This document shows, piece after piece, positions 26,701-48,081 of a stretch of 49,336 nt of DNA. Under the pieces are notes generated by a model, which worked only from the letters and a program-made list of their open reading frames with translations, did not search any database and was not told the origin of the DNA. Position numbers and translations under genes: made by a program. The stretch spans positions 1 to 49,336 of the IMG/VR virus record IMGVR_UViG_3300009161_000070; one strand, written 5' to 3'. The DNA is from a virus. How positions within the stretch are numbered: position 1 is the stretch's first letter; each line of letters begins with the position of its first letter.

Positions 26701-27845
26701 ATGGTATAAATTGGTTGGAACGATCTGCTATATCGCCGGTGGCAAACGGTATCACATCTGCCACCTATGTAAGTGGGTCTTTCGTGGTAGTCGGAGCTAA
26801 TACGGCCGGTGTATCAACAAACCCAAGCGATCTTGGAACATCCTCGTATTTCCACGGATATATGGACGAATTTCGTTATACCGATGATTTTTGTAGATAT
26901 ATAGGCTCGTATACTCCATACAAGCGTCAATTCCAAAACCGCTTGACATCTACGCTGACGCCAACGGCCACGAGCGCGCCAATCGATAAAAAAGCTATAT
27001 TTGGATATGGCAACGGTCCTGTCTCGATGACAAACCTTGTGTCCAACACTGGCGTTGTATCAACAGATACGACTGGCGTTGGCACTGCACGCACCTACCT
27101 CGCCGCTGCTGGCTACGGCACGGACAAGGCGATTTTTGGATATGGTACGACGGCGGGGTACAATCCAAATTATTCCATAACCAATCTGGTGAGTAATACA
27201 GGTGTTGTAGCAACTGATACAACGGGTGTTGGCACTGAACGCTGGTTTCTTGCCGCTGCTGGTTACGGCACCGACAAGGCGATCTTCGGATATGGCTACT
27301 CCTCCACCTCAAATGTTTCAATGACAAACCTTGTGTCCAACACAGGCGTTGTATCAACAGATACGACTGGGGTAGGCACTGCACGCAACGGCCCCGCCGC
27401 TGCTGGCTACGGTACGGGCAAGGCAATTTTTGGCTATGGCGTTGGCGACTGGGGGTATGTCTCGCTGATAAACTTTGTCTCCAACACGGGCGTTGTATCA
27501 ACGGACACGACTGGTGTGGGGTCTGCACGCTACGGCCTCGCTGCTGCTGGCTACGGTACGGGCAAGGCAATTTTTGGATATGGCTCCGACAACAGTGGCG
27601 ATTTATCGATTACAAACCTTGTGTCCAACACTGGCGTTATATCAACAGATACGACTGGCGTTGGCTCCATACGCTACAGCCCTGCTGCCGCCAGCTACGG
27701 TACAGACAAGGCAATTTTTGGGTATGGCTACACCAGCCCGTTGGTCTCAACAGTAAACCTCGTATCAAACACTGGCGTTGTAGCAACAGACACGTCCGTC
27801 TCTGGCACTGCCCGCTGGGGCCTAGCCGCAGCGAGCTACGCTTAA
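20703..27845 (+). CDS. 2380-residue multidomain adhesin (Gly-rich, LamG, propeller-like repeats)
   Basis: Order of parts: residues 50-180 Gly-rich domain; 185-401 Thr/Pro linker; 410-646 second Gly-rich domain; 660-683 short Thr/Pro linker; 693-803 third Gly-rich domain; about 809-1050 a LamG-like domain (WAFETWFFR, WHHLAITH, SIYVDGQPV, GYLSNYRI). A second LamG-like domain (FSLKFWYN ... WKHIGVSK ... YSIYIDG) is split by propeller-like repeats at about 1150-1450, and a third (MTIESWIN ... WSNVALTI ... HGYMDEFRY) is split by another set at about 1745-2045, with units like YGNGLFVAVA and TSPDGINWT. Residues 2097-2380 are six KAIFGYG repeats. There is no signal peptide or catalytic motif. Gly-rich and lectin-like parts suit a phage receptor-binding adhesin; a fused assembly artefact is unlikely because the frame is continuous. 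Confidence 0.75.
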   Translation: MPFISAKAIGSVSTLGGLGYSPQKPPNVFIATGGTVAYDGDYVIHTFTSSGTFTVLSGSGDITTMMVGGGGGGGYNCGGGGGGGGYIYQNTTVTTGSYSVVIGSGGAGGTISTNAANGNDSTFNQLTAIGGGGGGGYTNSTGSIGGSGGGASGTGFGPYTPGSGSGTLGYRGGFATLGGTPPSLTNTPTPTNTLTQTVTRTPTLTPSKTPTNTPTRTSTLTPTPTSTNTPTLTRTLTPTTSVTSTPTTTATPTRTSTPTLTSTPTLTPTRTPTTTRTPTLTSTPTLTSTPTLTPTKTPTTTRTPTRTVTATPYATNTSTPTISATSTLTPTLTPTLTSTPTLTATTTLTPTLTATTTLTSTPTPTPTLTKTLTATPTPTPTLTSTPTLTATTTVTSTLTPSVDTPYGGVVFAASGTSYNWTVPANIYFISVVAVGAGGGLISTTAGSGGAGGGSLVYGNNIAVTPGEVLTITAGVAVQNGGGSSSLVVQGGVTILSAGGGSRSNAFGTSGGTWGGTKATDGGNGGAGGGGGAYFSGLGGTLLTTSGGSGGAGGYGGSGGAGTSVGATTVTNGTSGAAGGGGGGSGGGAFSPFAGGGVGIYGQGSSGVYSNGSAGSAGSGGSGVTYGGGRGNPSGVAGDGVVRIIWGIGRAFPSTNVSALETPTPTPTPTPTPTPTRTSTPTLTVTSTYSQFRFYIGAGGGGAGNNGIDASYSAAGTGGAGILNTITGTPAYYAGGGGGGAWPSKSGGLGGTGGGGAGNVLGVGGAGTSGTANTGGGGGASSSTGGITAGAAGNGGSGIVVIKYRASSELLGNDPYFNKNIGLIHSDNTSQNAGNIVDVSGRNEVTINDSMYQGAESPHVNNGWAYFWTGSSSTVAQYTSSNAFIILSNGSSWAFETWFFRTSTALSQSLLDTNLFNVRLNVPTDGDISVNMTGSVGQIFSGSASKVQKLKTWHHLAITHQAPSMSIYVDGQPVVSFITGSTSYTSSGANLLTVGRTWGALTNYFNGYLSNYRISTTASLYTASFAPPRDTLSRTSSTRLLIMHDGTNLHDQNYSASSVISTTFDSTKLKLKTNPFFGALTGSYNSTINGSSIYSETQSAYITTDKSFLTFDPTGAFSLKFWYNTNKLEQNTFISGSTTSSLYLAYNYSNVDDWMYVSQATTSAGTTDYIAYTGTTYVTVGLSNTSSSFSTDGVNWSSRAINVTLDGNFGGIFYTGSVLLAYLSSATTAVPEKAIYSTNNGLTWASTTGLNVGTGNLFIYAMAFGNGTYVALGHDSGVVLPAFFSSANGTVWTRRTTPAVFTASMGSPGVAYGNGTFVGVGAGTDYILRSTVGTSWTSSIKIPSDSPAKNLSAIAYGNGTFVAVGNSSTILRCTDSGLTWNTIPVTPSNLSLSFVVYTGEFFAAAAGRHLITSPDGLTWTYKLLPISINNDFKYLNNKFYINSSAPTAPAAPIYVLTSSFKYCLDFKAPSYSGSIVLRSTASMLSTNFNNTIVPNTWKHIGVSKTTGSRYSIYIDGTNHAEFTDSSSLTGQTKIGPFCGYLSDFTVVSGSYDGKIPTGPETASTDTVILLSGTNPPAVDKTGLNTVITKNIDISNNVRKVGAGSMFFNGSSSYAYSPNWPTHFNASIDRGMNMTIESWINPSSLGTYRPIYSTNTLLDNGFSFGVNTNGKLTVKNYRNSASYTATSSTVIPTGSWSNVALTIYSGSKMSLWVNGTSVGSPTGSFISSSELGYQGTIGSSLENKTAWSIQISPTPGSQSWSDVAYGNGTFVAVANSPSGSLNAVMTSTDGITWTPRAQGAGRGQPWSSLAYGSGLFVAVANARWSFTTDPLYMTSPDGINWTARSTPTSSLNSLTYGNGLFVGGTTGNLFGFLTSPDGINWTPRATGVRAYFNVVYGNGLFVAVSDSTSITIYSNRVMTSTDGITWNLQMVPEFNSWKSVAYGNGLYVAVANNGLNRIITSPDGINWTPRKVGLSAYNKIIYGNGLFVVFAGGTLPTLTSSDGINWLERSAISPVANGITSATYVSGSFVVVGANTAGVSTNPSDLGTSSYFHGYMDEFRYTDDFCRYIGSYTPYKRQFQNRLTSTLTPTATSAPIDKKAIFGYGNGPVSMTNLVSNTGVVSTDTTGVGTARTYLAAAGYGTDKAIFGYGTTAGYNPNYSITNLVSNTGVVATDTTGVGTERWFLAAAGYGTDKAIFGYGYSSTSNVSMTNLVSNTGVVSTDTTGVGTARNGPAAAGYGTGKAIFGYGVGDWGYVSLINFVSNTGVVSTDTTGVGSARYGLAAAGYGTGKAIFGYGSDNSGDLSITNLVSNTGVISTDTTGVGSIRYSPAAASYGTDKAIFGYGYTSPLVSTVNLVSNTGVVATDTSVSGTARWGLAAASYA
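21255..21905 (+). repeat. Thr/Pro-rich low-complexity linker array
   Basis: In-frame degenerate repeats encoding TPTLTPT, TSTPTLT and TATPT-type units, separating two Gly-rich domains. A shorter copy lies at about 22681-22750. The opposite strand stays open across the array, giving a spurious valine/glycine-rich ORF. Confidence 0.85.
26991..27842 (+). repeat. Six KAIFGYG repeats (about 140 bp each)
   Basis: Six units of 45-49 residues with the order KAIFGYG, variable 5-10 residues, S-x-x-N-L/F-VSNTGVVSTDTTGVG, T/S-A-R and a closing LAAAGYGTD. The even spacing suggests a six-bladed propeller or a Kelch/RCC1-like ring. Base use is visibly richer in G and C than in the preceding adhesin sequence. 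Confidence 0.8.
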
Positions 27846-28093: not shown

Positions 28094-29665
28094 ATGTCAA
28101 TTACATTAAAGTCACTAAACGTTAGAGGCACTAGCATCGAATCTGCTTCATATTCACAAAAAGCAGATGTTGCTGACAGTGCTGCATATGCAGCAGTTTC
28201 TAACGTGGCGTACACGGCTTCTTATGTTGATTATAGTAATGTAAAAAATTCAACTCCAAGTTCTTCCTTTGCCGGTACATCGTCTTATGCATTAAATTCT
28301 AGCACGGCTTCTTATGTTGAAATAGCAAATACGGCATCATATGTGTTGTTGGCAAAAAGTTCATCGGTTTCTGCATATTCCGACACGGCGTCGTATATAT
28401 CAATTTCTCAAACAGCTTCGTATGTTGGTTACACAAACGTACAAAATATAAATCCAAGCTCTTCGTTTGCTGGCACGTCGTCGTATTCTACTACATCAAA
28501 AACAGCTTCTTATATAGCATGGTCAAATGTTGATGAGACCACAACCGATACGTTTGCTGGTACAGCGTCGTATGCAAATACTGTAGGGAGTGTAGTTTAC
28601 GGGGCAATCACAGACATATCAAGCTTATCTACATTTGCAGGTACGGCGTCATTTGCTAACACAGCACTCACAGCGGTATCTATTCCATACAGCGCAGTTA
28701 CTGATATTACCGCAACATCGGCGTTTGCAGGAACATCGTCCTATTCAACTATTGCTGCAACGGCGTCATATGTTGCGTGGACAAATGTCAATGAATCTAC
28801 AACCGACACGTTTGTTGGCACAGCTTCATACGCAAACAATGCAACGTCTGCCTCGTATGCATTAACTGCATCTTATATCGCGTGGTCAAATATTGATGAA
28901 TCCGCAACGGACATATTTGTTGGTACAGCATCGTATTCAGCCACGGCATCATATGCTTTAACAGCACTAACAGCGTCATTTGCATTAAATGTTCCAGAAA
29001 CTGCATCGTATGCTGCTAGTTCATCATATTCAGTTTTTGCAAACACAGCTTCTTATACTCTTTTTGCGCTTGAAAGCGGATCAACTCAAAACATAACAAG
29101 TAGTTGGGCAAACAATGCAGTTACAGCATCATTCTTGCTTGGTACAATAGACAGCGCGTCATATGCATTAAATGCAAAAACCGCATCATATCTACTAGGA
29201 TCTATTGAAAGTGCGTCATATGCGATAAGAATAGGAAAAAAGATAGTAAATTCTATACCAATTATTGCAAGTTCAGATCAAATTACATCACTTGTTGGTA
29301 TACCATATGAAACCACAGATTTTGGTAGCGAAGTTTATGTTCGTGCAGATTTAACAGACGTATCATCTTGCAGTTTGTCTCTAACCATAGAAAAGGAAGC
29401 TACTGGCCCGACATCTGTTACTTGCAGCTTATCTGTGCAATATTCGGTTGATGATTCTCTTTGGTATTATCTATCAGCAAATCCAGCTAATCTGCCATCG
29501 GTAGCTATGGACTCAGTCGGGTCTAAGCTTGGAGACAGAGTTGCTATAGTATCAGGTTCAAAACAAATTGTAACATTAAGATTAGTCACCAACGGTGGCG
29601 ATGCTTCAAATAACAGTTCAGTAACAATAGGAAATGTTACATTAAACGCGGTATATGACTTATAA
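28094..29665 (+). CDS. TASY-repeat tail fibre protein with distinct beta tip
   Basis: 523 residues. A short header (MSITLKSLNVRGTSIESASY) is followed by TASY nonapeptide repeats and the longer SNVDETTTDTFAGTASY and SNVKNSTPSSSFAGTSSY units. The final 140 residues (NSIPIIASSDQITSLVG to TIGNVTLNAVYDL) are a non-repetitive beta-rich domain unlike the tips of the other fibres, with QYSVDDSLWYYLS at its centre. Likely another fibre with its own tip. It heads a cluster with two smaller relatives; the next start is three bases after its stop. No Shine-Dalgarno is present. Confidence 0.7.
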   Translation: MSITLKSLNVRGTSIESASYSQKADVADSAAYAAVSNVAYTASYVDYSNVKNSTPSSSFAGTSSYALNSSTASYVEIANTASYVLLAKSSSVSAYSDTASYISISQTASYVGYTNVQNINPSSSFAGTSSYSTTSKTASYIAWSNVDETTTDTFAGTASYANTVGSVVYGAITDISSLSTFAGTASFANTALTAVSIPYSAVTDITATSAFAGTSSYSTIAATASYVAWTNVNESTTDTFVGTASYANNATSASYALTASYIAWSNIDESATDIFVGTASYSATASYALTALTASFALNVPETASYAASSSYSVFANTASYTLFALESGSTQNITSSWANNAVTASFLLGTIDSASYALNAKTASYLLGSIESASYAIRIGKKIVNSIPIIASSDQITSLVGIPYETTDFGSEVYVRADLTDVSSCSLSLTIEKEATGPTSVTCSLSVQYSVDDSLWYYLSANPANLPSVAMDSVGSKLGDRVAIVSGSKQIVTLRLVTNGGDASNNSSVTIGNVTLNAVYDL

Positions 29666-29668
29666 AAA

Positions 29669-29998
29669 ATGTTAAAATATGTACAATTTTTGCACCCAAT
29701 TAGTGGAAGTGAAGCTAGATTAATCAGTATCACCGCTTCATTATCAGGCACGGCATCGTATGCGGTATCGTCCTCATATGCCATAAATGCAAAAGGCCAA
29801 TGGAGCGCAAGTAATTTTACTACTACCGCAATAGACCCAGGAGTTGCCGGTTTTAATACATCCGGTCGTCCCGTTCTATACTCATCCGCACAAAACCAAA
29901 GCCGACTAACATATAGTGACGGACAGATTCGATGGATTTTATTTTCTATAATCCCAATAGTGGTCAATTTTACACACACTTATAATAGTTATATGTAA
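29669..29998 (+). CDS. Small fibre-related protein, short paralogue
   Basis: 109 residues. Residues of about 20-80 (SITASLSGTASYAVSSSYAINAKGQWSAS to a GRPVLYSS segment and DGQIRWI) match the N-terminal part of the next gene. After that the two diverge: this one ends in a hydrophobic IIPIVVNFTHTYNSYM, whereas the neighbour continues for about 160 residues. It may be a truncated duplicate or a small cap protein. The gap to the next gene is eight bases. Confidence 0.5.
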   Translation: MLKYVQFLHPISGSEARLISITASLSGTASYAVSSSYAINAKGQWSASNFTTTAIDPGVAGFNTSGRPVLYSSAQNQSRLTYSDGQIRWILFSIIPIVVNFTHTYNSYM

Positions 29999-30006
29999 CA
30001 ATCCGC

Positions 30007-30819
30007 ATGGACAAACTAAGCATATTTAAAAGCATTATAAGTGGAAGCCGAATGATATTGGTTTCTGCGACCGCTTCATTGTCTGGAACAGCTTCGTATG
30101 CAGTATCATCGTCATATGCTATAAATGCAAGCGGGTTGTGGTCTTCAAGCAGTTTTACTGCAAGTGCACAATCTATTGCCGCGTTTGATACTAACGGAAG
30201 ACCAATATTTTTAACTCCTACCACAAACAATACATACATCGCTATTCAAGATGGTGCGATTGTATGGATTCCAATCACAACGGCAGGTGGAACAGGTAAC
30301 TTTGCTACATACGCTGAAATTTTTAGTGATAACGAATATTTGTTTGTTCAATCGGGTTCAAATTTTGCATTTCCAAGCGCGTCGTTTACTAGCGACGAAG
30401 ATATGGTTCTTATACAAGTAAGTGCAAATTTTGCTATACCAAGCAGTTCATTCTCAAGCGACGAAGATAGAATTTATATTCAATCCGGATCAAACTTTGC
30501 TTTTCCAAGTTCTTCGTTTGCAAGTGATGAATTTATTTCTGATATTGGATCAATAAAGCTGACCGGATCTATGGGTGCAAATTTATCGGTTGCAGACACG
30601 CTGGTAATTTATGAACCATCAACTGTTATTACCGGTTCAATGACATATTCAAATTATTTTGAATCTATAGAAACTTATGAAATTCCCACAAACATTTCAA
30701 GTTCTATGGAATCTAGACCAATAATAGATGCCACAGAATATATAGATACTGTTATATCTGTTACATCGTCGTTATTACCAAGATTCACAGCACCATCTTA
30801 TACAACTGCATCTGTATAA
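30007..30819 (+). CDS. Fibre-related protein with FAFPSSSF repeats
   Basis: 270 residues. It shares its N-terminal TASLSGTASYAVSSSYAINA block and NGRPIFLTP / DGAIVWIPI elements with the preceding gene. Residues of about 110-180 hold three 24-residue units of the form SGSNFAFPSSSFASDED, and the rest is beta-rich with repeated SMxSxxIIxAT-like segments. No known domain is recognised. It is probably a structural fibre component, based on the shared TASY-type block and the location between fibre genes and the eight-paralogue array. Confidence 0.5.
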   Translation: MDKLSIFKSIISGSRMILVSATASLSGTASYAVSSSYAINASGLWSSSSFTASAQSIAAFDTNGRPIFLTPTTNNTYIAIQDGAIVWIPITTAGGTGNFATYAEIFSDNEYLFVQSGSNFAFPSASFTSDEDMVLIQVSANFAIPSSSFSSDEDRIYIQSGSNFAFPSSSFASDEFISDIGSIKLTGSMGANLSVADTLVIYEPSTVITGSMTYSNYFESIETYEIPTNISSSMESRPIIDATEYIDTVISVTSSLLPRFTAPSYTTASV

Positions 30820-30844: not shown

Positions 30845-31927
30845 ATGAGTTTACCAGCATTAGAATGGCGAAAATTACCAGTGAGAGTACTGCAAGTTTC
30901 TCAATCGTCGGCAAATTCATTGCTAGACAACATATACGATATGTTGACAGGATCGGTGTATCATGATAATACGGCCAGAATTCCCGGTAGTGGTAGTGCT
31001 TGGTATAGAGTAACAAAGTTTGTTACAGGATCAAATACAGAAGCAGTTTTTTGTTTTCCTCCAACAAAAACAGAAATGAGCATGTCTGTGATATTTGCCG
31101 GTAAAGCAACATCCGGCACATCAACGACATTTGCCGCTGCAACTGCTAGTATGGAAAATACCATAGCCGGTGGTTTGTTGTATGGCGCATGTGTTAAAGG
31201 CGCAGAATCTTCATCGTTTTCTCAATGGACAAGTTATTATCCATTTGGTTCAAGTTCAAATTCCACGGGATATATGAAAATAGGTCCAAGTGCTAGTGCA
31301 TTTGGGTTATACGACAAATTAACAATCTACGAATCCAAAGAAGCTATTGCATTAACGATGTATGATTTTGCAGGATCTGCAAATTATCCGTTTTTTGCAG
31401 GGGCAATTATTGACCCAGAACAAAGCACGCCAACGTCGTCTATTGATGCAGAAGCGGACGGTAGATTATATGGAACCGCTGGTTTGTCTGGAAATACTGG
31501 ATTATACAGATATATGCATTCGTCACTGGGCAATCTCTCGGGTTCTCTTTTTGAAACTATTGCATGGGATTATGGTGCTAACGTCGATAATCCAAAATTC
31601 AACGTATTTTTACCAAATAGTAGATTTACTATGCCTTGTGCCAGTGAAAAATTTCCGGCCGTCAATATAGGAAATTTTTATCCCAGCTCAAATTATATTA
31701 GACTCTCTGGAAAATTTGTATCAACTCCTATAAAATGCGGAAGAAAATCTGGAAATGATTTTAGTGAAATTCGCAACTATCTCGGCAGACTGCGCGATAT
31801 ATCGGTAATAAGAGATGATTTTGACAATCAAGTTATACGCGACGAGTATGTTGGCAAATTCCTTGGATATACCATAGCATCGTCACAAACCACTCAAAGC
31901 AATGCGATTTTATTAAATTATTCTTGA
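30845..31927 (+). CDS. Paralogue 1 of the eight-gene WRKLP family
   Basis: 360 residues. It defines the family pattern: LEWRKLPVR at the start, NIYDMLTGSVYHD at about 30-42, a GSGSAW turn, TGSNTEAVFCFPP, FSQWTSYYPFGSS, IYESKEAIAL, AGAIIDPEQ, DAEADGRLYG and a C-terminal YLGRLRDI with IRD and a terminal LLNYS. No catalytic motif or known domain is seen; the strand-turn composition suggests a beta-rich structural or receptor-contact protein. The stretch from about residue 215 to 300 is variable in the family. The start is the first ATG after an ATTTTTT leader, with no Shine-Dalgarno. Confidence 0.6.
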   Translation: MSLPALEWRKLPVRVLQVSQSSANSLLDNIYDMLTGSVYHDNTARIPGSGSAWYRVTKFVTGSNTEAVFCFPPTKTEMSMSVIFAGKATSGTSTTFAAATASMENTIAGGLLYGACVKGAESSSFSQWTSYYPFGSSSNSTGYMKIGPSASAFGLYDKLTIYESKEAIALTMYDFAGSANYPFFAGAIIDPEQSTPTSSIDAEADGRLYGTAGLSGNTGLYRYMHSSLGNLSGSLFETIAWDYGANVDNPKFNVFLPNSRFTMPCASEKFPAVNIGNFYPSSNYIRLSGKFVSTPIKCGRKSGNDFSEIRNYLGRLRDISVIRDDFDNQVIRDEYVGKFLGYTIASSQTTQSNAILLNYS

Positions 31928-31970
31928 GATAATACTTTTTTTAATAACCTAACCAAATATATATACATCT

Positions 31971-33017
31971 ATGAGCTTACAACCACTAGAATGGAGAAAA
32001 TTACCAACCCGTACTTTGCAAGTATCGCAGTCGGCCAGTACAATGTTAAACACTATATACGACATGCTAACAGGCTCCGTATATTTCGACGGATCTGCCA
32101 GAAATATCGGCAGTGGAAGTGCTTGGCAGCAAGTCACAAAGTTTGTTACAGGATCAAACACAGAAGCAGTTTATTGCTTTCCTCCTGTAATAACTGAACT
32201 AAGTCAATCCGTGATCTTTACTGGTAGACAAACATCTGCACCGTCGTCATCAGCAGCATCTCCAACGGCAAGTTTGGAAAACGTCTCGTTTCCAGGCTTT
32301 TTATACGCCGCACTTGCCAAAAATGCAGCATCTGCTTCATTCACACAATGGACCAGTGCATTTCCATTTGGATCAAGCTCAAATTCCACTGGATACACGC
32401 AAATATCTTTAGCGACGAATTTATACTCCGTTACAGATAAAATAACAATTTATGAATCTAAAGAAGCTATTGCTGTTACGTTCTATAGACCAGCAACATC
32501 AATTGTTAACGGTATAATCGCAGGTGCTATCATCGACCCAGAGCAAAGTACTCCAACCTCATCCATCGATGCTGAAACCGACGGTAGATTGTATGGATTG
32601 GTAAATTTTCCAGCAGCAGGAATATCAGCAACCTTTTTTGCTAATAATACTTCATTTTTATCGCAACAAAATCAAACTGTCAGCGCACAAGCCGGTGATA
32701 TAGCAAGATTTGTCGCGTTCAAACCCAGTACTGGATTTACAATGGGCGTTACAACAGACAAGCATTCGGTTGGGTTGACGCCTAGTATCAGATATACAAC
32801 AATGTCTGGTAAGTTTGTAGACACCGCATTAAAGTGCGCCAGATTTGACGACGGTACAGCCACTTCTTATATAGGAAGATTGCGCGATATTACTATGACA
32901 AAAAATACTCCGTTGAATTATATTATCAGAGATAACACCTCCGGAGCTATTTCTGGATATATAATATCCGCCAACGAATCTGGTGTGAATAACGCTGTGA
33001 TGTTAAACCACGCTTAA
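31971..33017 (+). CDS. Paralogue 2 of the WRKLP family
   Basis: 348 residues, starting MSLQPLEWRKLPTRTLQ. All family landmarks are present (YDMLTGSVYFDG, GSGSAW, TEAVYCFPP, FTQWTSAFPFGSS, YESKEAIAV, AGAIIDPEQ, DAETDGRLYG, IGRLRDI). The middle cysteine seen in paralogue 1 (GACVKG) is replaced (ALAKNA), while the first (CFPP) and last (LKCARF) are kept. It ends VMLNHA. A 43-base gap precedes it; the next gene follows after six bases. Function unknown. Confidence 0.6.
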   Translation: MSLQPLEWRKLPTRTLQVSQSASTMLNTIYDMLTGSVYFDGSARNIGSGSAWQQVTKFVTGSNTEAVYCFPPVITELSQSVIFTGRQTSAPSSSAASPTASLENVSFPGFLYAALAKNAASASFTQWTSAFPFGSSSNSTGYTQISLATNLYSVTDKITIYESKEAIAVTFYRPATSIVNGIIAGAIIDPEQSTPTSSIDAETDGRLYGLVNFPAAGISATFFANNTSFLSQQNQTVSAQAGDIARFVAFKPSTGFTMGVTTDKHSVGLTPSIRYTTMSGKFVDTALKCARFDDGTATSYIGRLRDITMTKNTPLNYIIRDNTSGAISGYIISANESGVNNAVMLNHA

Positions 33018-33023
33018 TTTTTT

Positions 33024-34103
33024 ATGGCACTACTACCACCACTTGAATGGAGAAAGTTACCTGTCAGAATTATACAAAGCGCATCATTGTCTACAAGTGA
33101 TGCGTTGAATATAGTTTATGACATGATGACTGGCTCTATTTACTATGATGGATCAACCAGAATAGCTGGCAGTGGTAGTGCATGGACCGCGTCTGGTAGG
33201 TTTGTAACAGGATCTGCGCTTGAAGCATTTTGGTGTTATCCACCGTTGTTGACTAGTATCAGTCAGTCGATCATGTTTGCTGGTAAAAGCACTGCACCAT
33301 TAACTTCCAGTGCGGCGTCTCCGTATCTTCTATCGGGAAGTGGGGAAAATTCATTTGCTAATACTATTCACATGGCGCATATAAAAAATGCGTCCTCATC
33401 GTTTACTCAGTGGACCAGCCAATTTCCATTCGGCAGTGGATCCGCTTCGTCTGGCTATATAAGAGCAGCAAATACCATAAGTTCCGGTATACTGGGGTCG
33501 AAGTTTGTAATATACGAATCAAAAGAAGCACTTGCATTCATGCACTATACACTGGCACCCAATCTTGTTGCAACAATTGCGGGAGCGGTCATTGATCCAG
33601 AACAAACCGACCCAACCTCATCGTTTGATGCGGAGGTAGATGGTAGAATATATGGAATCATTGGTTCATCTGCGGCCACGCAGGTTCCTACTCCAGCAAA
33701 TTCTTTCTCGGGAAATTTATCAGCGTTTTTAACGGCTGCTGAAGCCGCTTATACTTTTTTATCAAATTTTGGCACCTTAAATTCCCAATCCAATATTTCG
33801 TATTCGAAATTTTATAGTTGGTATCCAAATACCACCGCGTTAATCGGCACAAGCACGGATAAATATAGAGCAGATGCTTATATCAATTTTCAATCTTTAT
33901 CTGGTCGATTAATATCCGCTCCACTCAAATGTTATAATAATACATCTCCACAAACATACCTCGGAAGACTACGCGACATAGCCGTAACAAAAAGATTGCC
34001 ACTTGGTGAAGTTGTAAGAGATTTTAACGGAACGATAATAGGATACACACTATCTGCAACAGAAACCGGTGTGAGCGACACGGTCGTATTCAACCACTAT
34101 TAA
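33024..34103 (+). CDS. Paralogue 3 of the WRKLP family
   Basis: 359 residues, starting MALLPPLEWRKLPVRII. It departs most from the family in the N-terminal third (MMTGSIYYDG, EAFWCYPPLLTSIS in place of TEAVYCFPP) and carries the longest variable segment before the closing LGRLRDI (PTPANSFSGNLSAF onwards). It retains FTQWTSQFPFGSGS, YESKEALAF, AGAVIDPEQ and DAEVDGRIYG, ending VFNHY. Starts six bases after the previous stop behind a TTTTTT leader. Function unknown. Confidence 0.6.
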   Translation: MALLPPLEWRKLPVRIIQSASLSTSDALNIVYDMMTGSIYYDGSTRIAGSGSAWTASGRFVTGSALEAFWCYPPLLTSISQSIMFAGKSTAPLTSSAASPYLLSGSGENSFANTIHMAHIKNASSSFTQWTSQFPFGSGSASSGYIRAANTISSGILGSKFVIYESKEALAFMHYTLAPNLVATIAGAVIDPEQTDPTSSFDAEVDGRIYGIIGSSAATQVPTPANSFSGNLSAFLTAAEAAYTFLSNFGTLNSQSNISYSKFYSWYPNTTALIGTSTDKYRADAYINFQSLSGRLISAPLKCYNNTSPQTYLGRLRDIAVTKRLPLGEVVRDFNGTIIGYTLSATETGVSDTVVFNHY

Positions 34104-34119
34104 AAAGAAATAAAATATT

Positions 34120-35208
34120 ATGAGTTTACCGTCACTACAGTGGAGAAAATTGCCAACAAGAATAACACCTTATTCTACAACAACCTTTACAGCATCTCTT
34201 ATATTAGATACAATATACGATATGTTAACAGGATCTGTTTATTTTGACGGTTCAACTAGAATTGCTGGCAGTGGAAGTGCATGGAGCGCATCTGCTAAAT
34301 TTCAAACCGGTTCAAATACAGAAGCTGTTATTTGCAGACCGCCAGTGTATACGGTGATCAGTCAATCTATAATATTAAGTGCTACGAATCACTATGGCCC
34401 ATCAAGTAGTGCGACTCCATTCATGTGCACCGGTGAAGTTTATAGTGGCTCATATATCTATATGGCATGTGTAAAGAATGCATCTGCCTCATTCACAGAA
34501 TGGACAAGTCGTTTTCCGTTTGGATCCGGTTCTTATTCTACTGGATATGGAAAAATTTCTGGTACAGCGCATATGTCTGCCGGTGAAAGATTAACTGTGT
34601 ATGAATCAAAAGAAGCACTTGCTGTGATGTTTTCCAATCCTCAATTCGGCGGAATAGTTCTAACTGCTATCGGTGGAGCTATTATTGATCCAGAACAAAA
34701 TACAACAAGTGTAGACGCCGAAATAGACGGTAGATTATATGCGATTGCAACGTCCGGTGTTCCTATAACAGCTGGATATGGGGTAGCACCGGTATTTTTA
34801 ATAGAAGGAGGGTCGCAGAGTGGAAGTTTATTTACACATAGAAACGAAGCAAGTGCCGCTGGTGCGGGATATGCCAGATTTGTTGGATTTTATCCACAAC
34901 AACAGGCGTCGATGAGTATTATAACTCAAAAAACAGGTTTTACTAATGTTGCTGGATATAATCCATATTATGTTTTTAATACGCCATACAGCGGAAAATT
35001 AATACAAAATCCTATATTATGTGCAATATCTGGCAGTGCTACAAATTTAAATTATTATCTAGGAAGATTGCGTGATATCAACATCACAAAAGCACTACCG
35101 TCAAATCAAGTAGTCAGAGATAGTTCTGGTAGCATTTCTGGATTTACATTAGCATATTCAGAAAACACAGTGACAAACGGCAACACTGTGTTGTTTCCAT
35201 ATAACTGA
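34120..35208 (+). CDS. Paralogue 4 of the WRKLP family
   Basis: 362 residues, starting MSLPSLQWRKLPTRITP. Landmarks: YDMLTGSVYFDG, GSGSAW, TEAVICRPP, MACVKNAS, FTEWTSRFPFGSGS, YESKEALAV, GAIIDPEQN, DAEIDGRLYA and LGRLRDI. The variable part contains SLFTHRNEASAAGAG and RFVGFYPQQQ, a sub-pattern (hydrophobic-T-H then FV-F-x-P-Q) also seen in paralogues 5, 6 and 7, so even the variable part has a common fold. Ends VLFPYN. Confidence 0.6.
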   Translation: MSLPSLQWRKLPTRITPYSTTTFTASLILDTIYDMLTGSVYFDGSTRIAGSGSAWSASAKFQTGSNTEAVICRPPVYTVISQSIILSATNHYGPSSSATPFMCTGEVYSGSYIYMACVKNASASFTEWTSRFPFGSGSYSTGYGKISGTAHMSAGERLTVYESKEALAVMFSNPQFGGIVLTAIGGAIIDPEQNTTSVDAEIDGRLYAIATSGVPITAGYGVAPVFLIEGGSQSGSLFTHRNEASAAGAGYARFVGFYPQQQASMSIITQKTGFTNVAGYNPYYVFNTPYSGKLIQNPILCAISGSATNLNYYLGRLRDINITKALPSNQVVRDSSGSISGFTLAYSENTVTNGNTVLFPYN

Positions 35209-35232
35209 TATTTATTAATACTTTAAAATTTT

Positions 35233-36324
35233 ATGGCATTACCATCATTACAGTGGAGAAGATTACCAAGCAGACTTATAGCAACTAGCTCTGTAGATAC
35301 TAGTGTTTTTCTTAATACTATATATGACATGTTGACTGGATCGTTGTATTATGATGGATCATCCAGAGTAATCGGTTCTGGCAGTGCTTGGAAAAATACT
35401 ACAAAATTTATTACCGGTTCAAATACAGAAGCGGTTTATTGCTTTCCTCCAACAAATACAGCAATGAGTCAATCTATCATTTTTGCTGGTAAAAATTATT
35501 TCGGTGTGTCAAGTAGTTTTAACGTTCCACTCGTAATAAACGGAGATACTCCAGACTTTACCACAACCGGACGTGATATATTGATGGCAAATGTCAAATT
35601 AGCACAATCCGAATCATTTACTCAATGGACAAGTTTATATCCATTTGGTTCAAGTTCATATTCTACCGGTTATGCGCCATTAACTAAATGTAATTTATTT
35701 AGTGCGCTTCAAACACCAAAAATAATTATATATGAATCAAGAGAAACTATGGCGGTAATTGTATCATTTCCAAACGCATACTGTCATGTCACTGTGGCTG
35801 GGGCTATCATTGATCCAGAACAAACATCGGCGGGTATAGATGCAGAAATTGATGGTAGATTATATGCAATCGCAACTTCCGGCGGAAGCACATCGACCGG
35901 AACTCTTGTTTCAGGATTGAATCCTAATTTTATGACGTTTTCTACCGATTCAACGGCAGTAAATTCAGGTTCTTTATTTAGTCATAGCACAACCGCAATT
36001 GGTGCATCCGCGCATTATCCAAAATTTGTTGGATTTATACCGCAGCTACAGTCTACATTTACAATTATGGCCGAAAAACAGAATACTACGACATCAACGT
36101 ATCCTTCATTTTCCGGAAAAACTATTCAACTTCCAATAAAATGCACTGGAAAAACAAATAATTATTATCTAGGAAGACTCCGCGATATAAATAGTGTAAA
36201 ACCCTTTTTATTAAACCAAGTTATAAAAGATCAATCAAACAATGTTGTTGGATATGCAATTGCAGCAAGCGAATATGCACTTCCAACTACGCAAGTTTCG
36301 GCGGTTTGTTTACCATATAACTAA
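35233..36324 (+). CDS. Paralogue 5 of the WRKLP family
   Basis: 363 residues, starting MALPSLQWRRLPSRLIA. It has YDMLTGSLYYDG, GSGSAW, TEAVYCFPP, FTQWTSLYPFGSSS, YESRETMAV (rather than YESKEA), AGAIIDPEQ, DAEIDGRLYA and LGRLRDI. The N-terminal half has an extra loop (NGDTPDFTTTGRDIL). The variable part contains SLFSHSTTAIGASA and KFVGFIPQ as in paralogue 4, its closest neighbour. Ends VCLPYN. Confidence 0.6.
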   Translation: MALPSLQWRRLPSRLIATSSVDTSVFLNTIYDMLTGSLYYDGSSRVIGSGSAWKNTTKFITGSNTEAVYCFPPTNTAMSQSIIFAGKNYFGVSSSFNVPLVINGDTPDFTTTGRDILMANVKLAQSESFTQWTSLYPFGSSSYSTGYAPLTKCNLFSALQTPKIIIYESRETMAVIVSFPNAYCHVTVAGAIIDPEQTSAGIDAEIDGRLYAIATSGGSTSTGTLVSGLNPNFMTFSTDSTAVNSGSLFSHSTTAIGASAHYPKFVGFIPQLQSTFTIMAEKQNTTTSTYPSFSGKTIQLPIKCTGKTNNYYLGRLRDINSVKPFLLNQVIKDQSNNVVGYAIAASEYALPTTQVSAVCLPYN

Positions 36325-36339
36325 AATATTTAAAAATTT

Positions 36340-37386
36340 ATGCCATTACCATCATTACAATGGAGAAAATTACCAGTACGTTACTTAGGTGTAACGGCAT
36401 CATTTAGTGCAAACTTTATATTAGAAAATATATACGACGTATTAACTGGTTCGTTGTATCATGACGGTTCTGCCAGAGTAATTAATAGCGGTAGTGCATG
36501 GAGTGCCTCTGGAAAATTTACAACAGGTTCTAACGTAGAAGCAGTTTATTGTCGCCCACCGGTAAACACAATCTTGAGCCAATCTGTTATTTTTTCTGCA
36601 AAAAATGCGTTGGTGCCTTTTAGCAGTGCAACACCCCCAGTAGTAACAAACGAAACTGCATACAGTGCATCGGTTGTTCACGTTGCATGTGTGAAAAATG
36701 CGACAGGATCGTTTACAGAATGGACAAGTCAATTTCCATTCGGAACAGGTTCTTATTCTACCGGATACGCCAGAGCAACAAACATTTTTACTACCAACAC
36801 TAAGTTGGTTATGTATGAATCAAAAGAAGCACTGTGTGTGAATTTTATAAACCCAGCAAACAACGTATCGCAGATAATTTTGGCGGGAGCTATAATAGAC
36901 CCAGAACAAGCAAATCCCACTTCGTCACTGGACTCAGAGAATGATGGTAGAATGTACGCGGTAATTACCAGTGGAGTTTCTACGCAGACTCCGACTTCGC
37001 CAAGCGCCACGTTTTTATCGGGATCGGGTGAATTTCTTACACACAACTTGAGTGCAAATACAACTACAATTGGAGTTTCCAGATTTGTTACATTTTTACC
37101 ACAACAAAACTCTACAACGGGAGTGTATACAAAGAGACCTAGTACATCCGTATATGGCCCGACATATACAACATTTAGCGGAAAAAATGTTCAAAATCCG
37201 ATGTATGTTTTAACCGTCGGCCAAACGCCTTATGATCTTTTCGTTGGCAGATTGCGCGATGTAACAATCGTAAAAGGTGGACCAACAAATCAAGTTATGA
37301 GAGATAATTCAAATAACATAGTAGGATTTACATTAGGAGCAAGTGAAATTTCAGCTACACATGCTGTGCTATTAACTTATATATAA
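36340..37386 (+). CDS. Paralogue 6 of the WRKLP family
   Basis: 348 residues, starting MPLPSLQWRKLPVRYLG. Its segment VVHVACVKNATGSFTEWTSQ is identical in protein to paralogue 8, two genes away, although the codons differ. It has YDVLTGSLYHDG, EAVYCRPP, YESKEALCV, AGAIIDPEQ, DSENDGRMYA and VGRLRDV. It lacks the third family cysteine near the closing motif (MYVLTV in place of an I-K-C-like segment). It is followed eight bases later by an unrelated 69-residue gene. Confidence 0.6.
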   Translation: MPLPSLQWRKLPVRYLGVTASFSANFILENIYDVLTGSLYHDGSARVINSGSAWSASGKFTTGSNVEAVYCRPPVNTILSQSVIFSAKNALVPFSSATPPVVTNETAYSASVVHVACVKNATGSFTEWTSQFPFGTGSYSTGYARATNIFTTNTKLVMYESKEALCVNFINPANNVSQIILAGAIIDPEQANPTSSLDSENDGRMYAVITSGVSTQTPTSPSATFLSGSGEFLTHNLSANTTTIGVSRFVTFLPQQNSTTGVYTKRPSTSVYGPTYTTFSGKNVQNPMYVLTVGQTPYDLFVGRLRDVTIVKGGPTNQVMRDNSNNIVGFTLGASEISATHAVLLTYI

Positions 37387-37394
37387 TAAATCAT

Positions 37395-37604
37395 ATGAAA
37401 GCAATAGAAGATCAAATACAAAGTTGTATCGAATCGGTTGGATCAAATACCGTAGCGTACATGGTTATACCAAACTATTGGTTTGGTTATAATTTTACAA
37501 AACCGGAAAACGTAGAATTTTCGGGACATGACAGCGAAAGCATGGTTGCATATGATGCAGACGGAAATTGTTTAACCATCATGATGTCGGCTAGAATAAT
37601 CTAA
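37395..37604 (+). CDS. Small hypothetical protein interrupting the paralogue array
   Basis: 69 residues (MKAIEDQIQSCIESVGS to MMSARII). It has a predicted helix at the start, then strands around YMVIPNYWFGYNF and DGNCLTIMMSA; no signal peptide, no family recognised. It is the only member of this stretch that is not a WRKLP paralogue. Gaps are eight and 17 bases, so it is transcribed with its neighbours. It could be a partner of one paralogue or a remnant of an insertion; the sequence does not decide. Confidence 0.5.
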   Translation: MKAIEDQIQSCIESVGSNTVAYMVIPNYWFGYNFTKPENVEFSGHDSESMVAYDADGNCLTIMMSARII

Positions 37605-37621
37605 CAGTTATATAAAAATAA

Positions 37622-38665
37622 ATGAGTTTACAAGCATTACAGTGGAGAAGATTACCAACTAGAGCAATACCATTTGGTGCAACAATTACGTCATCGTATT
37701 TGTTGGATACAATATATGATATGCTCACTGGTTCTTCATACTATGACGGCACAGCAAGAACTGCTGGCGTTGGTAGTGCATGGCAAGGAGTTACAAAGTT
37801 TGTAACTGGGTCAAATACGGAAGCGGCATATTGTTTTCCACCAACAAAAACAATAATGAGTCAGTCTGTTATTTTTTCCGCGAGAAGTATAACCGGTGCA
37901 TCCAGTAGTGCAGTGCCAGAAGTTGTAACAAACGAAGGTGCGTATGCAACGGACCTTGTATTTGGTGCGTGCGTTAAAGGTGCAGATGCGGCTTCATTCA
38001 CACAATGGACCAGTTTGTTTCCATTTGGGTCTGGTTCTGTTTCTACAAAATATGCACAATGGTTTAGATTAAGTTTACTTAGTGCCGGATCTAGATTTAC
38101 GATGTACGAATCAAGAGAAGCATTGGCTGGTGTAGTATACAACCCAACCGCTGGTAGTACAAACATAATTTTATTGGGATCTATCATTGATCCAGAACAA
38201 AGTGTAACATCCGTTGATGCGGAACTTGACGGTAGATTGTATGGCGTCGCGACGAGTGGAGTTTCTACCAGTGGAACTTATACCGTAGCAACTAATTTTT
38301 GGACAAACAACGGTGCATTTCTCACTCACAACACAACGGCAAATGCCGCGAGCGTTTCTCCGCCAAGATTTACTATTTTAACTCCACAGACAGGTTCAAC
38401 TTTACCCGTTGCGGTAATTAAACCGTCAGCCGTAATAGTAAACGTTCCGACTACAACAAATTATTCTGGAAAATATGTAAGAAAAACAGTAAATTGCGCA
38501 ACTTCAGGCAGTTTTAATTTTCTTGGAAGATTGCGAGACATGACATGGATAACTGCATTGCCATCAAATGAAGTTGTTAGAGATCAATCAAACAACGTTC
38601 TTGGATACACACTGGCCGCATCAGAAATCACAGCAAGTGCCACACTGCTATTAAACTATTCTTAA
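37622..38665 (+). CDS. Paralogue 7 of the WRKLP family
   Basis: 347 residues, starting MSLQALQWRRLPTRAIP. Landmarks: YDMLTGSSYYDG, a GVGSAW variant of the GSGSAW turn, TEAAYCFPP, GACVKGAD, FTQWTSLFPFGSGS, YESREALAG, LGSIIDPEQ, DAELDGRLYG, LGRLRDM and an ITASATLLLNYS end. The variable part includes FLTHNTTANAASVS and RFTILTPQ, as in paralogues 4-6. Seven bases separate it from paralogue 8. Confidence 0.6.
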   Translation: MSLQALQWRRLPTRAIPFGATITSSYLLDTIYDMLTGSSYYDGTARTAGVGSAWQGVTKFVTGSNTEAAYCFPPTKTIMSQSVIFSARSITGASSSAVPEVVTNEGAYATDLVFGACVKGADAASFTQWTSLFPFGSGSVSTKYAQWFRLSLLSAGSRFTMYESREALAGVVYNPTAGSTNIILLGSIIDPEQSVTSVDAELDGRLYGVATSGVSTSGTYTVATNFWTNNGAFLTHNTTANAASVSPPRFTILTPQTGSTLPVAVIKPSAVIVNVPTTTNYSGKYVRKTVNCATSGSFNFLGRLRDMTWITALPSNEVVRDQSNNVLGYTLAASEITASATLLLNYS

Positions 38666-38671
38666 AATTTT

Positions 38672-39745
38672 ATGAGTTTACCTGCATTAGAATGGAGAAA
38701 ATTACCAGTACGTATACCTACCGCATCGTACTCGGCAAATTATTTATTGGATACAATCTACGATATGCTGACCGGTTCTTTGTATGTAAACGGAGCAACT
38801 AGAGTGATTGGTAGCGGCAGTTCGTGGAGTGCGTCTGGAAAATTTACAACGGGTTCAAACACAGAGGCGGTGTATTGTCGTCCACCTTCTCCAAATACAT
38901 TTTTAAGTCAATCTGTTATTTTTTCGACAAAGAGTTCCACCGTACCTTTTAGTACGGCCACTCCTCCTGTGATAACAAATGAAGCTGCGTACAGTTCATC
39001 CGTAGTTCACGTAGCGTGTGTGAAAAATGCAACGGGATCTTTTACAGAATGGACAAGTCAATTTCCGTTTGGATCAAGTTCATATTCCACTGGATATGCC
39101 AGAGGCTTCAACGCTGTTTATTATGCATCAGCAAGCAAAATATCTATTTACGAGTCTAAAGAAGCAATTGCAGTATCTATATACAGTCCAATAACCGCAT
39201 CGTCTTGTATTATTGCTGGCGCTATTGTAGATCCGGAAACAGAAGGTGTAACTTCATCATTTGATTCGGAGCAAGACGGTAGACTGTATGGTGTTGCTTC
39301 CAGTGGGTGTACTTTTGGTGCAGCGGTCAATACAGCAACTCCTATGTCAACCACGTTCTTGACACAGGCCGCAAACGCAGCTGTCGCAGGTGCATTTTTG
39401 TCGCACGACTCAACTACATCCACAAATACGCTCGGTTATCCAAAATTTGTGATATTTAAACCAAGAGATAATGCGATTTATACCATTTCAAAAGACGGAC
39501 TTTCAAATTCTACATATTACAATTCGGCATCGCTTACCTTGTCTGGAAGCATTGCGCAGTCAGGAATTACTTGTTATGATACAACCAATTTAAAATTTGT
39601 TGGTAGAATAAGAGATATAACTGCGGTTAGATCTCAATATAATAACACGATAGTAAGAAGTCCGGCAGCAGCAATTATTGGTTACGCTATATCACCAAGT
39701 GAAGTCACTGCTTCCAATCATACGGTATTGCTTAATCACAGCTAA
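38672..39745 (+). CDS. Paralogue 8 of the WRKLP family
   Basis: 357 residues, starting MSLPALEWRKLPVRIPT, the same opening as paralogue 1. It has YDMLTGSLYVNG, GSGSSW, TEAVYCRPP, VVHVACVKNATGSFTEWTSQ (shared with paralogue 6), YESKEAIAV, AGAIVDPET (a variant of DPEQ), DSEQDGRLYG and VGRIRDI, ending VLLNHS. It is the last gene of the array and is followed by a hairpin. Confidence 0.6.
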   Translation: MSLPALEWRKLPVRIPTASYSANYLLDTIYDMLTGSLYVNGATRVIGSGSSWSASGKFTTGSNTEAVYCRPPSPNTFLSQSVIFSTKSSTVPFSTATPPVITNEAAYSSSVVHVACVKNATGSFTEWTSQFPFGSSSYSTGYARGFNAVYYASASKISIYESKEAIAVSIYSPITASSCIIAGAIVDPETEGVTSSFDSEQDGRLYGVASSGCTFGAAVNTATPMSTTFLTQAANAAVAGAFLSHDSTTSTNTLGYPKFVIFKPRDNAIYTISKDGLSNSTYYNSASLTLSGSIAQSGITCYDTTNLKFVGRIRDITAVRSQYNNTIVRSPAAAIIGYAISPSEVTASNHTVLLNHS

Positions 39746-40255: not shown

Positions 40256-43243
40256 ATGGCACTAGAACAAAATGGCACATTCCAACCGAGCGAAAGAATC
40301 GTCAGTCCCGGCGTATTCACTCGTGAAATCGATCAATCGTTCCTTGCACAAGGAGTAGCAGCTATCGGCGGCGTCGTCGTGGCTCCGTTCCCAAAAGGAC
40401 CGGGTTTTGCACCTACAACGGTAACAAGCGAAGCTGATCTTAACGCAATCTTCGGTGAACCCGATGGCGTCCTTTTTGGACCATACACAGCCCAACAATA
40501 TATCCGTCAGCAAGGTCAAGTGACCGTTTGCCGCGTCGGTGGTTTGGGTGGATATGAACAAGATCAAGCGCTTATCGTTTCGGCGATACCCGGTGCTTAT
40601 GACAGATACACAGAATCTGGTTCAATCACTGGTAGCAGTGTTGGATTCACCGTAACAGAAATTTCTGCTGGTAACTTCAACGTTGAAGGATCTGTACTAG
40701 CCACTTTCTTAAGTGGATACTATGTTGGTTCTACACAAGTAATCGGAGCAATCAGTGCATCCGTTAACAATGTTGTTTATACTGGTTCTGCTCTATTGGG
40801 CGGATCTGTTACTGCTTCGTTGAGCAACTCATTGTTGCCACACAATCCAGCTGACACATTGACACTGCAAGCTAGAATTACACGCGGTTCTGTTGGTGCT
40901 TGTGGATACACATACTCGTTCGCAGGAAAAGTTACCGGTGATTACGGAACATTCGATGTTGATTCTTGGACCGCTGACAGTGTTTCTTCTGAAGATGCAT
41001 GTGGAAGTGGCTCATCTGCCGCTGGTCGCGATGAAGTTGTATTGGCTGTTCTAGCTAACACCGCATATGACCGTGGTCAAAACCTATACGGTTTCAGTGG
41101 ATCTGTGCTAACAGCAAAAGATACATCTGTTGTCGGAACCGATTTTAGACTAGAACTAAACGAAACCCACTTCGATCTAGATATGGGCGTTTATACATCT
41201 GGTTCATACGGCACATACGAATTCTCAATTGATCCAACAAGCACATCATACATCACATCTGTGTTCGGTACTGATGCAGAAGCTGGCTTCACGTCAGTTG
41301 CAGCTGGTCAAAAAATTGAAGCTGCTTATACCTACAAACACTTCAACAACAAAGCTGCTGAAATCGTTGCTGATATCTCCGTTTCTGGTAGCTGGAAGAT
41401 CGAAGTATCTAGCCGCAATGCTATGGTATTCGCTGACGGTGTAACACCAGATGAAAGCGATTCACTGTTTGATTTACGTCAAGCTGAAACACCATTCATC
41501 AAATCTCAAAAAGTTGCTCCATTCAGTGGATCCGTTGGTGCTCCAACCGCAGCTTCTTACGATTTGTTCAAGATTCACACCTTGTCTGATGGTACAAACA
41601 CAAACACTCAATTCAAAGTTGAAATTTCGAACGTAAAATCTGCCGGATCAATCCCAGGTTCTAAATACGGAACATTCACATTGTCTCTACGTTCATTCAC
41701 GGACGCTGACGCAAAGCCAAGTGTCATTGAACGCTACGACAATCTAAACCTAGACGAAACAAGCGCAAACTATGTTGCTCGTCGTATCGGCGATGTATTC
41801 ACATACATCAACTACAACGGCAAGATTCTTCAATTCGGTGATTACAACAATATCAGTAAATACATCCGCGTTGAAATGGCAACATCGCCATGGCCAGTAG
41901 ATGCAATTCCATTCGGCTTCGGTGCATACGCTTCACCAATTAGTGGTGACTATGCTCGCTTGGGTAAGGTTCCAGTAATGCAATACACCAGTGCTTCGAT
42001 TTACTCGGCTCAACCCGGTCGTTATGCTTCTGGTATCGTGTTCCAACCAGCTCCTTCAACAGCTGACGCTGAACTAGCTGCTCTATATCCAAACGGTTCA
42101 TCCGCCGGTGCTGAACTAGACAACAAACAATACTTCGCTCCAGTTCCATACGGTTATAGCGTCGGTCATAATGTTGAATTCAGTCTAGAAGATAACTGCG
42201 GACTAAGCCCAGTTTATATTGCGTCTCAAGAAAACACAAACGTTAAGAAACGCCGCTTCGTCCTTGGTTTCCAAGGTGGATTCGATGGTCAAAGCCCATC
42301 TGTTCCAGTACTAAGTGGTAACGACATCATCCCAACCAACCAACAAGGTTTGGATTGCTCGACAAACGTTTCACGTGGTTCTTACGGATACAAACAAGCA
42401 ATGGCTGCATTAAGTAACGCCGACGAGTTTGATTTTAATCTAATCACAACTCCTGGTATAAACTATCAATATAATCCATATCTAGTATCATTGGTACTAG
42501 AAGTTTGTGAAAACCGTGGCGACGCATTCTATATCATGGATATCGCTCCAAATCAAGCCGCTGGCGCAGCCGCTATCGAAAACGTAGTGTCTATGGCTTC
42601 GCAGTTTGATTCAAACTACGGTGCTACATACTATCCTTGGGTCAAGATCGTTGACACAAACTCTAACAGAGTAATCCCAGTTCCTCCTTCGGTTGTTATG
42701 ATGAGCGTATTCGCCGCTAACGACCAAGTAGCTGCTGAATGGTTTGCTCCAGCTGGTCTAAACCGTGGTGGTATTCCTGCCGCAGTTCAAGTAATCGACC
42801 GCTTGACACACTCGGAACGTGATAGTCTATACGAAGGAAGAGTTAATCCAATCGCCGCCTTCCCAGGTCAAGGTATCGTAGCATGGGGCCAAAAGACCCT
42901 GCAACGTCAACCTTCCGCATTGGATCGCATCAACGTGCGTCGTCTATTGATCGCGTTGAAGAAGTTCATCGCTTCTTCATCAAGATACCTAGTATTCGAA
43001 CAAAACGTTGCATCAACACGCCAACGCTTCTTGAACATTGTGAATCCATATTTGGATGGTGTTCAACAACGTTCCGGCTTGTATGCCTTCAAGGTAGTAA
43101 TGGACGAAAGTAACAACACACCAGATCTAGTTGACCGTAATATTCTATACGGCCAAATCTATCTAAAACCGTCGCGTACCGCAGAATACATAATTTTGGA
43201 TTTTTCAGTACTTCCAACGGGAGCTACTTTTCCAGGATCCTAA
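40256..43243 (+). CDS. Tail sheath protein (gp18-like), enlarged
   Basis: 995 residues; T4 gp18 has about 660. The N-terminus (SPGVFTREIDQSFLAQG, then TVTSEADLNAIFGEP and QYIRQQGQVTVCRVGG) and the C-terminal third (LNRGGIPAAVQVIDRLTHSE, RINVRRLLIALKKFI, LYAFKVVMDESNNTPD, YIILDFSVLPTG) are typical of contractile phage sheaths, which stack as rings around the tail tube and contract to drive it through the cell envelope. The extra length lies between residues of about 115 and 540 and includes TGS/SGS-rich beta stretches like the fibre genes. Codons use C at third positions more than the neighbours, consistent with high expression. Start supported by the family N-terminus and AGGAG. Confidence 0.9.
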   Translation: MALEQNGTFQPSERIVSPGVFTREIDQSFLAQGVAAIGGVVVAPFPKGPGFAPTTVTSEADLNAIFGEPDGVLFGPYTAQQYIRQQGQVTVCRVGGLGGYEQDQALIVSAIPGAYDRYTESGSITGSSVGFTVTEISAGNFNVEGSVLATFLSGYYVGSTQVIGAISASVNNVVYTGSALLGGSVTASLSNSLLPHNPADTLTLQARITRGSVGACGYTYSFAGKVTGDYGTFDVDSWTADSVSSEDACGSGSSAAGRDEVVLAVLANTAYDRGQNLYGFSGSVLTAKDTSVVGTDFRLELNETHFDLDMGVYTSGSYGTYEFSIDPTSTSYITSVFGTDAEAGFTSVAAGQKIEAAYTYKHFNNKAAEIVADISVSGSWKIEVSSRNAMVFADGVTPDESDSLFDLRQAETPFIKSQKVAPFSGSVGAPTAASYDLFKIHTLSDGTNTNTQFKVEISNVKSAGSIPGSKYGTFTLSLRSFTDADAKPSVIERYDNLNLDETSANYVARRIGDVFTYINYNGKILQFGDYNNISKYIRVEMATSPWPVDAIPFGFGAYASPISGDYARLGKVPVMQYTSASIYSAQPGRYASGIVFQPAPSTADAELAALYPNGSSAGAELDNKQYFAPVPYGYSVGHNVEFSLEDNCGLSPVYIASQENTNVKKRRFVLGFQGGFDGQSPSVPVLSGNDIIPTNQQGLDCSTNVSRGSYGYKQAMAALSNADEFDFNLITTPGINYQYNPYLVSLVLEVCENRGDAFYIMDIAPNQAAGAAAIENVVSMASQFDSNYGATYYPWVKIVDTNSNRVIPVPPSVVMMSVFAANDQVAAEWFAPAGLNRGGIPAAVQVIDRLTHSERDSLYEGRVNPIAAFPGQGIVAWGQKTLQRQPSALDRINVRRLLIALKKFIASSSRYLVFEQNVASTRQRFLNIVNPYLDGVQQRSGLYAFKVVMDESNNTPDLVDRNILYGQIYLKPSRTAEYIILDFSVLPTGATFPGS

Positions 43244-47793: not shown

Positions 47794-48081
47794 TTAACAT
47801 CCCATTTTATCAACTGCTTTTGAACACATTTCTTGCCACTCGGCGACATCAAATATATCAGGTCCAAACTTTGCGTCATATGACAATAAAACTTTAGACT
47901 CATATATTATCTTATCATTATCTTTGGAATCAAATACAAACAAACTTGCTTGACGAGTTCCAGTACGTTGCACTTCACATTTGAATCGTCGGTCTAGAAT
48001 AGCGACCCAAATCAACAAAGAATCACCCCTGCCGTCAGTTTCATTTATTTCAATATTATAAACTGCAAGCGGTTTTTTCAT
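47794..48081 (-). CDS. Hypothetical protein, beta-rich
   Basis: 95 residues (MKKPLAVYNIEINETDGRGDS to WQEMCSKAVDKMGC). It shows alternating strands (AVYNIEIN, LLIWVAIL, RFKCEVQR, ASLFVFDS) and a helical tail. No family is recognised. The ATG overlaps the end of the endonuclease gene by four bases (ATGA), so it is cotranslated and travels with it. A function cannot be assigned. Confidence 0.5.
   Translation of the reverse strand: MKKPLAVYNIEINETDGRGDSLLIWVAILDRRFKCEVQRTGTRQASLFVFDSKDNDKIIYESKVLLSYDAKFGPDIFDVAEWQEMCSKAVDKMGC

Follow-up and report, generated by a model that had tools for sequence, protein, structure and literature searches.

The window, the whole stretch of DNA analysed here, comprises positions 1–49,336 (49,336 nt) of IMG/VR virus record IMGVR_UViG_3300009161_000070. 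Eight open reading frames (ORFs) lie in tandem on its plus strand at 30845–39745, each encoding 347–363 residues without internal stops. Neighbouring genes are 6–43 bases apart; a single wider gap, of 235 bases, contains a 69-residue ORF. The array is bordered by TASY-repeat fibre-like genes on one side and by a tail sheath gene on the other. The features of the locus are as follows, with counterparts in a related contig, L001.

28094–29665, plus strand: TASY-repeat fibre-like protein, 523 aa; upstream neighbour, kept in L001 (92%)
29669–29998, plus strand: 109-aa protein with an N-terminus like that of the following gene product; possible adaptor
30007–30819, plus strand: TASY-type protein, 270 aa, the array's upstream neighbour; candidate stalk or adaptor
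30845–31927, plus strand: array gene 1, 360 aa, with its own AlphaFold model; orthologue at L001:10001–11107
31971–33017, plus strand: array gene 2, 348 aa; orthologue at L001:11149–12195, 83%
33024–34103, plus strand: array gene 3, 359 aa; the most divergent orthologue pair (56%, dS about 2)
34120–35208, plus strand: array gene 4, 362 aa; in the family alignment, orthologue in L001
35233–36324, plus strand: array gene 5, 363 aa; in the family alignment, orthologue in L001
36340–37386, plus strand: array gene 6, 348 aa, with an AlphaFold model; top PDB matches 8rk3_G and 8rk3_K
37395–37604, plus strand: small ORF, 69 aa, between array genes 6 and 7; conserved at L001:16576–16782
37622–38665, plus strand: array gene 7, 347 aa; in the family alignment, orthologue in L001
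38672–39745, plus strand: array gene 8, 357 aa; in the family alignment, orthologue in L001
39821–40111, plus strand: 96-aa protein, adjoining the sheath gene in relatives
40256–43243, plus strand: tail sheath protein, 995 aa; matches PHROG 23 (tail sheath) at E 3e-75

The 69-residue ORF differs from its L001 counterpart with a pS of 0.44 and a pN of 0.11. It has no Pfam match and is possibly a chaperone or adaptor for the array. Most genes between positions 182 and 46201 of the window, including all eight array genes, have no Shine-Dalgarno motif and carry an AT-rich leader before the start, for example TTAAAATTTTATG. The tail sheath gene departs from this pattern (AACAGGAGAAA). Starts of this type behind AT-rich leaders are known from Bacteroidota, and the leaders may offer a clue to the host.

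The eight array proteins align over their full length, are 39–55% identical and share about 70 invariant columns, a similarity far above chance. The preliminary description of the locus as eight tandem paralogues of 347–363 residues thus holds: all are intact, lie on the plus strand and can be aligned end to end. The motifs that it listed as fixed are strongly conserved but not invariant. WRKLP alternates with WRRLP, YDMLTGS with YDVLTGS, and GSGSAW with NSGSAW and GVGSAW; likewise, YESKEA alternates with YESREA, IIDPEQ with IVDPET, and GRLRDI with GRIRDI and GRLRDM. The variable middle exists as well but is mainly located in the third quarter of the proteins, at alignment columns 226–350 (approximately residues 207–310), where paralogue identity is 0.23–0.29. 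Lesser variable patches occupy columns 101–125 and 151–200. Identity is 0.48–0.71 in the N-terminal blocks, 0.74 in columns 126–150, 0.66 in columns 201–225, and 0.41–0.47 at the C-terminus.

The family has no match in Pfam, PHROGs or the PDB sequences, and tblastn against 50,697 phage genomes returned no match either, so that it is as nameless in these collections as first described. No relative turned up in 84,980 genomes of bacteria and archaea. Relatives are found only in two other IMG/VR contigs. L001 (90.6 kb) contains eight copies in the same order and with the same flanking genes as the window, and L002 (9.4 kb) contains a complete copy plus the end of another, which lies at the contig edge. 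Further scans of viral sequences, using the central block, the copy from L002 and a neighbouring gene as queries, recovered the same two contigs and nothing else. Among 28 records searched whole, the family is present in L001 and L002 and absent from the 26 other related phage records, some of which are fragments. The best sheath segments of some relatives that lack the family are up to 79% identical to the window sheath. As far as these collections show, the family is restricted to a narrow phage group, since L001 and L002 alone hold relatives.

In a phylogenetic tree, each array gene of the window groups with its positional counterpart in L001, with 100% bootstrap support for every pair. The eight copies are therefore older than the split between the window and L001, and their order has been kept since. 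All eight orthologue pairs display a dN/dS of 0.08–0.21, indicating that every copy is under purifying selection. No whole-gene positive selection is seen in these pairs, as dN/dS is well below 1.

These data bear on the proposal, made in the preliminary description, that a conserved scaffold with a variable region reflects antigen or receptor switching. In such a scheme, one copy would be expressed at a time and the others would serve as a store for antigen-like variation. Besides the scaffold and the variable region, a local conversion that genes 6 and 8 may have undergone at columns 101–150 would fit it. However, all eight ORFs are intact, face one direction and are separated by short gaps; they have one-to-one orthologues in order, and purifying selection acts on each. 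In addition, no inverted repeats of at least 20 nt were found within the array region. Purifying selection, one-to-one orthology and the lack of such repeats together argue for coexisting subunits, and we regard switchable cassettes as highly improbable.

The array is more divergent between the two phages than its surroundings. The dS between the window and L001 is 0.25–0.5 in neighbouring genes and 0.56–2.0 in the array, with a peak at gene 3. In gene 1, dS jumps at codons 182–300, forming a mosaic inside the gene. With a dS above that of the flanks, the array seems to have a longer history than the genes around it; exchange of alleles explains this best. As judged from a comparison of two genomes, alleles of the array genes have probably been exchanged between related phages. 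Such exchange is usual for host-contact genes. Gene conversion among the paralogues was also considered, but is not general. Array genes 6 and 8 are closer to each other than to their orthologues in a single block, and four blocks of gene 3 give an ambiguous picture. Genes 6 and 8 may have undergone local conversion at columns 101–150 and also have a 212-nt stretch of 80% identity (36564–36775 and 38893–39104).

The tail sheath gene at 40256–43243 places the array in the tail cluster of a contractile-tailed phage (myophage). The sheath has matches in 2583 phage records; among cultured phages, Microcystis phage Mel-JY01 and Flavobacterium phage immuto have the most closely related sheaths. Upstream lie long TASY-repeat proteins and, at 20703–27845, a gene for a 2,380-aa protein that combines LamG with glycine-rich domains; the gene at this place in L001 encodes 1,804 aa. 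Homing-endonuclease-like genes (PHROG 3339) lie directly after the sheath at 43295–44101 and on the minus strand at the window end (48078–49334).

The slot upstream of the sheath contains different genes in related phages. One relative, L014, carries seven tandem LamG lectin-like paralogues in this slot (L014:228–5404), six of which match Pfam PF13385 (Laminin_G_3). Phage immuto carries two to three tandem LamG genes, and other relatives with similar sheaths have collagen-like fibres in the region. None of the eight array proteins matches Laminin_G_3 in a Pfam search. The adhesin-type genes in the same slot of relatives support a host-contact role for the array, and the tandem lectin genes point to a module for interchangeable adhesin arrays.

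AlphaFold2 models of array genes 6 and 1 were built with 17 sequences, with a pLDDT of 66.9 and pTM of 0.76 for gene 6 and a pLDDT of 71.7 and pTM of 0.80 for gene 1. In a Foldseek search of 350,542 PDB chains, the top two matches of the gene 6 model are 8rk3_G (E 0.013, prob 0.90) and 8rk3_K (E 0.042, prob 0.94). For the gene 1 model, 8rk3_K is the sole good PDB match (E 2.4e-4, prob 1.00, TM 0.47/0.53); the next match, with an E of 0.32, is a thousandfold weaker. The 8rk3 structure is the baseplate of Pseudomonas phage JBD30. Within the set of JBD30 baseplate proteins, the chain lengths of 305 and 317 identify 8rk3_G as gp48 (307 aa) and 8rk3_K as gp47 (318 aa). The models, of moderate confidence, superimpose on these chains with a TM of about 0.5 and an rmsd of 7–11 Å, so that a shared fold is claimed and not close kinship. 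Among the best BFVD matches (E 3e-5 to 3e-3), every named one is a phage protein, and several carry the annotation virion structural protein; they include proteins of Xanthomonas phage FoX4, Burkholderia phage KL1, Achromobacter phage AchV4 and Bacillus phage G (gp371).

At the sequence level, hhalign of the array family against gp47/gp48 gives a probability of 0.2–0.3%, inside the column-shuffled null, and profile–profile comparison with the phage G families is negative. Any kinship with gp47 and gp48 is thus seen in the fold alone. The preliminary description had named a clear match to a known fibre as a point against its reading; such a match exists for the predicted fold but not for the sequence. 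Overall, it is quite likely that the array proteins share the fold of JBD30 gp47 and gp48, as the models suggest. Two other candidates were dropped. A gp47-profile match in phage immuto (E 4e-4) is confined to about 50 residues in a protein of 463 aa and was attributed to chance. A 387-aa gene of Acidovorax phage ACP17 has the length of the BFVD match and lies near baseplate genes, but is a single copy with no sequence link.

Each bent tail fibre of JBD30 consists of three gp47–gp48 heterodimers, whose subunits have similar folds and jointly form a surface embracing the type IV pilus (PMC11445458). The two proteins are homologous to each other (profile probability 98.5%, E 3e-15). Phages of Xanthomonas, Brevundimonas, Burkholderia, Sphingomonas and Clavibacter, and another Pseudomonas phage, likewise have an adjacent pair of the gp47/gp48 type behind the tape measure gene. 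The same fibre reading has been proposed for Pseudomonas phage Lydia (PMC11946847). In Bacillus phage G, three tandem paralogues, gp371–373 (L104:29965–32568), match the gp47 profile (89%, E 2e-6), suggesting that this phage probably has a fibre of the gp47 kind. Their annotations consist of gp numbers or virion structural protein only.

Such annotations among the fold relatives are compatible with a structural, non-adhesive role, in which the array proteins would decorate the tail or brace it at the baseplate periphery. The lectin-type genes in the slot of relatives and the divergence of the array relative to its flanks both fit host contact better, making a purely structural role very unlikely. 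Alternatively, each paralogue may form its own homo-oligomeric baseplate adhesin, the set widening the host range. Tandem, intact and divergent copies under purifying selection fit such independent tips, tandem LamG lectin genes occupy the same slot in relatives, and Ackermannviridae are an established case of several spikes on the same virion (PMC11414711). However, the predicted fold matches subunits of a heteromeric fibre rather than trimeric spikes, and independent tips would not require the conserved order and copy number seen in two phages. We therefore consider them rather unlikely, although a more serious alternative than the structural role.

The reading that we prefer, with somewhat better than an even chance of being correct, is that the eight genes encode coexisting adhesin subunits of the distal tail of the virion, with the gp47/gp48 fold and probably co-assembling into hetero-oligomeric arms or a tuft. 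It draws on the tail context, the fold, the heteromeric precedent, the coexistence of the copies, the slot and the allele exchange. The proteins would be eight virion proteins of the distal tail, as context and fold suggest. By analogy with JBD30, the different paralogues would probably combine to form hetero-oligomeric arms or a tuft of adhesins, a proposal based on that precedent, the conserved order and the selection on all copies. The conserved N-terminal scaffold would anchor the proteins and mediate contacts between subunits; loops of the variable third quarter, which is under lower constraint, may touch the host. Diversity would arise from gene duplication and allele exchange between related phages rather than from on/off switching. 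A stricter version, in which one ordered hetero-oligomeric fibre has a fixed place for each subunit as an eight-part JBD30 arm, appears unlikely. If real, such a fibre would contain more distinct paralogous subunits than any phage fibre known to us. The earlier reading is thus partly supported: its suggestion of receptor binding or a heteromeric structure is the better half, given the tail cluster and the predicted heteromeric-fibre fold.

Knowledge of the gp47/gp48 fold comes so far mainly from a single phage that binds pili; the array adds to it an unnamed family that neither Pfam and PHROGs nor sequence searches detect. Here a contractile-tailed phage carries the predicted fold in an expanded set of eight conserved copies. 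This raises the testable questions of whether the copies co-assemble and whether copy number tracks receptor breadth.

To our knowledge, the spikes of Ackermannviridae do not belong to one full-length paralogous family in tandem. These phages resemble the array in bringing several adhesin genes together on one virion; in them, as many as four tail spikes form a branched complex that recognises polysaccharides. The LamG (Laminin_G_3) arrays of L014 and immuto occupy the same slot as the array and likewise consist of tandem paralogues of one domain, but belong to a recognisable Pfam family, PF13385.

JBD30 gp47/gp48 (PDB 8rk3 and 8rk5; Casadabanvirus), which have homologues in other siphophages, resemble the array in predicted fold, in being adjacent paralogues in a tail module, and in length (307–318 versus 347–363 aa). 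JBD30 has two such genes, whereas the array has eight, and no sequence similarity is detectable between them. JBD30 is a siphophage with the pair behind the tape measure gene, while the window belongs to a myophage with a different gene order. The JBD30 receptor is the type IV pilus; a pilus receptor for the array is conceivable but not indicated, and seems doubtful.

Phage G, a giant phage, is similar to the array in its tandem paralogues gp371–gp373 (three, about 280–290 aa). They differ in their lower paralogue identity (29–30%), in having three copies, and in showing no sequence match to the array family. With two copies in JBD30, three in phage G and eight in the array, tandem duplication appears to be a habit of this fold. 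The array forms an unnamed family and is probably an unusual eight-copy version of a known kind of tail-fibre subunit. Seen alongside the three-copy set of phage G, it suggests that heteromeric fibres may generally arise by duplication.
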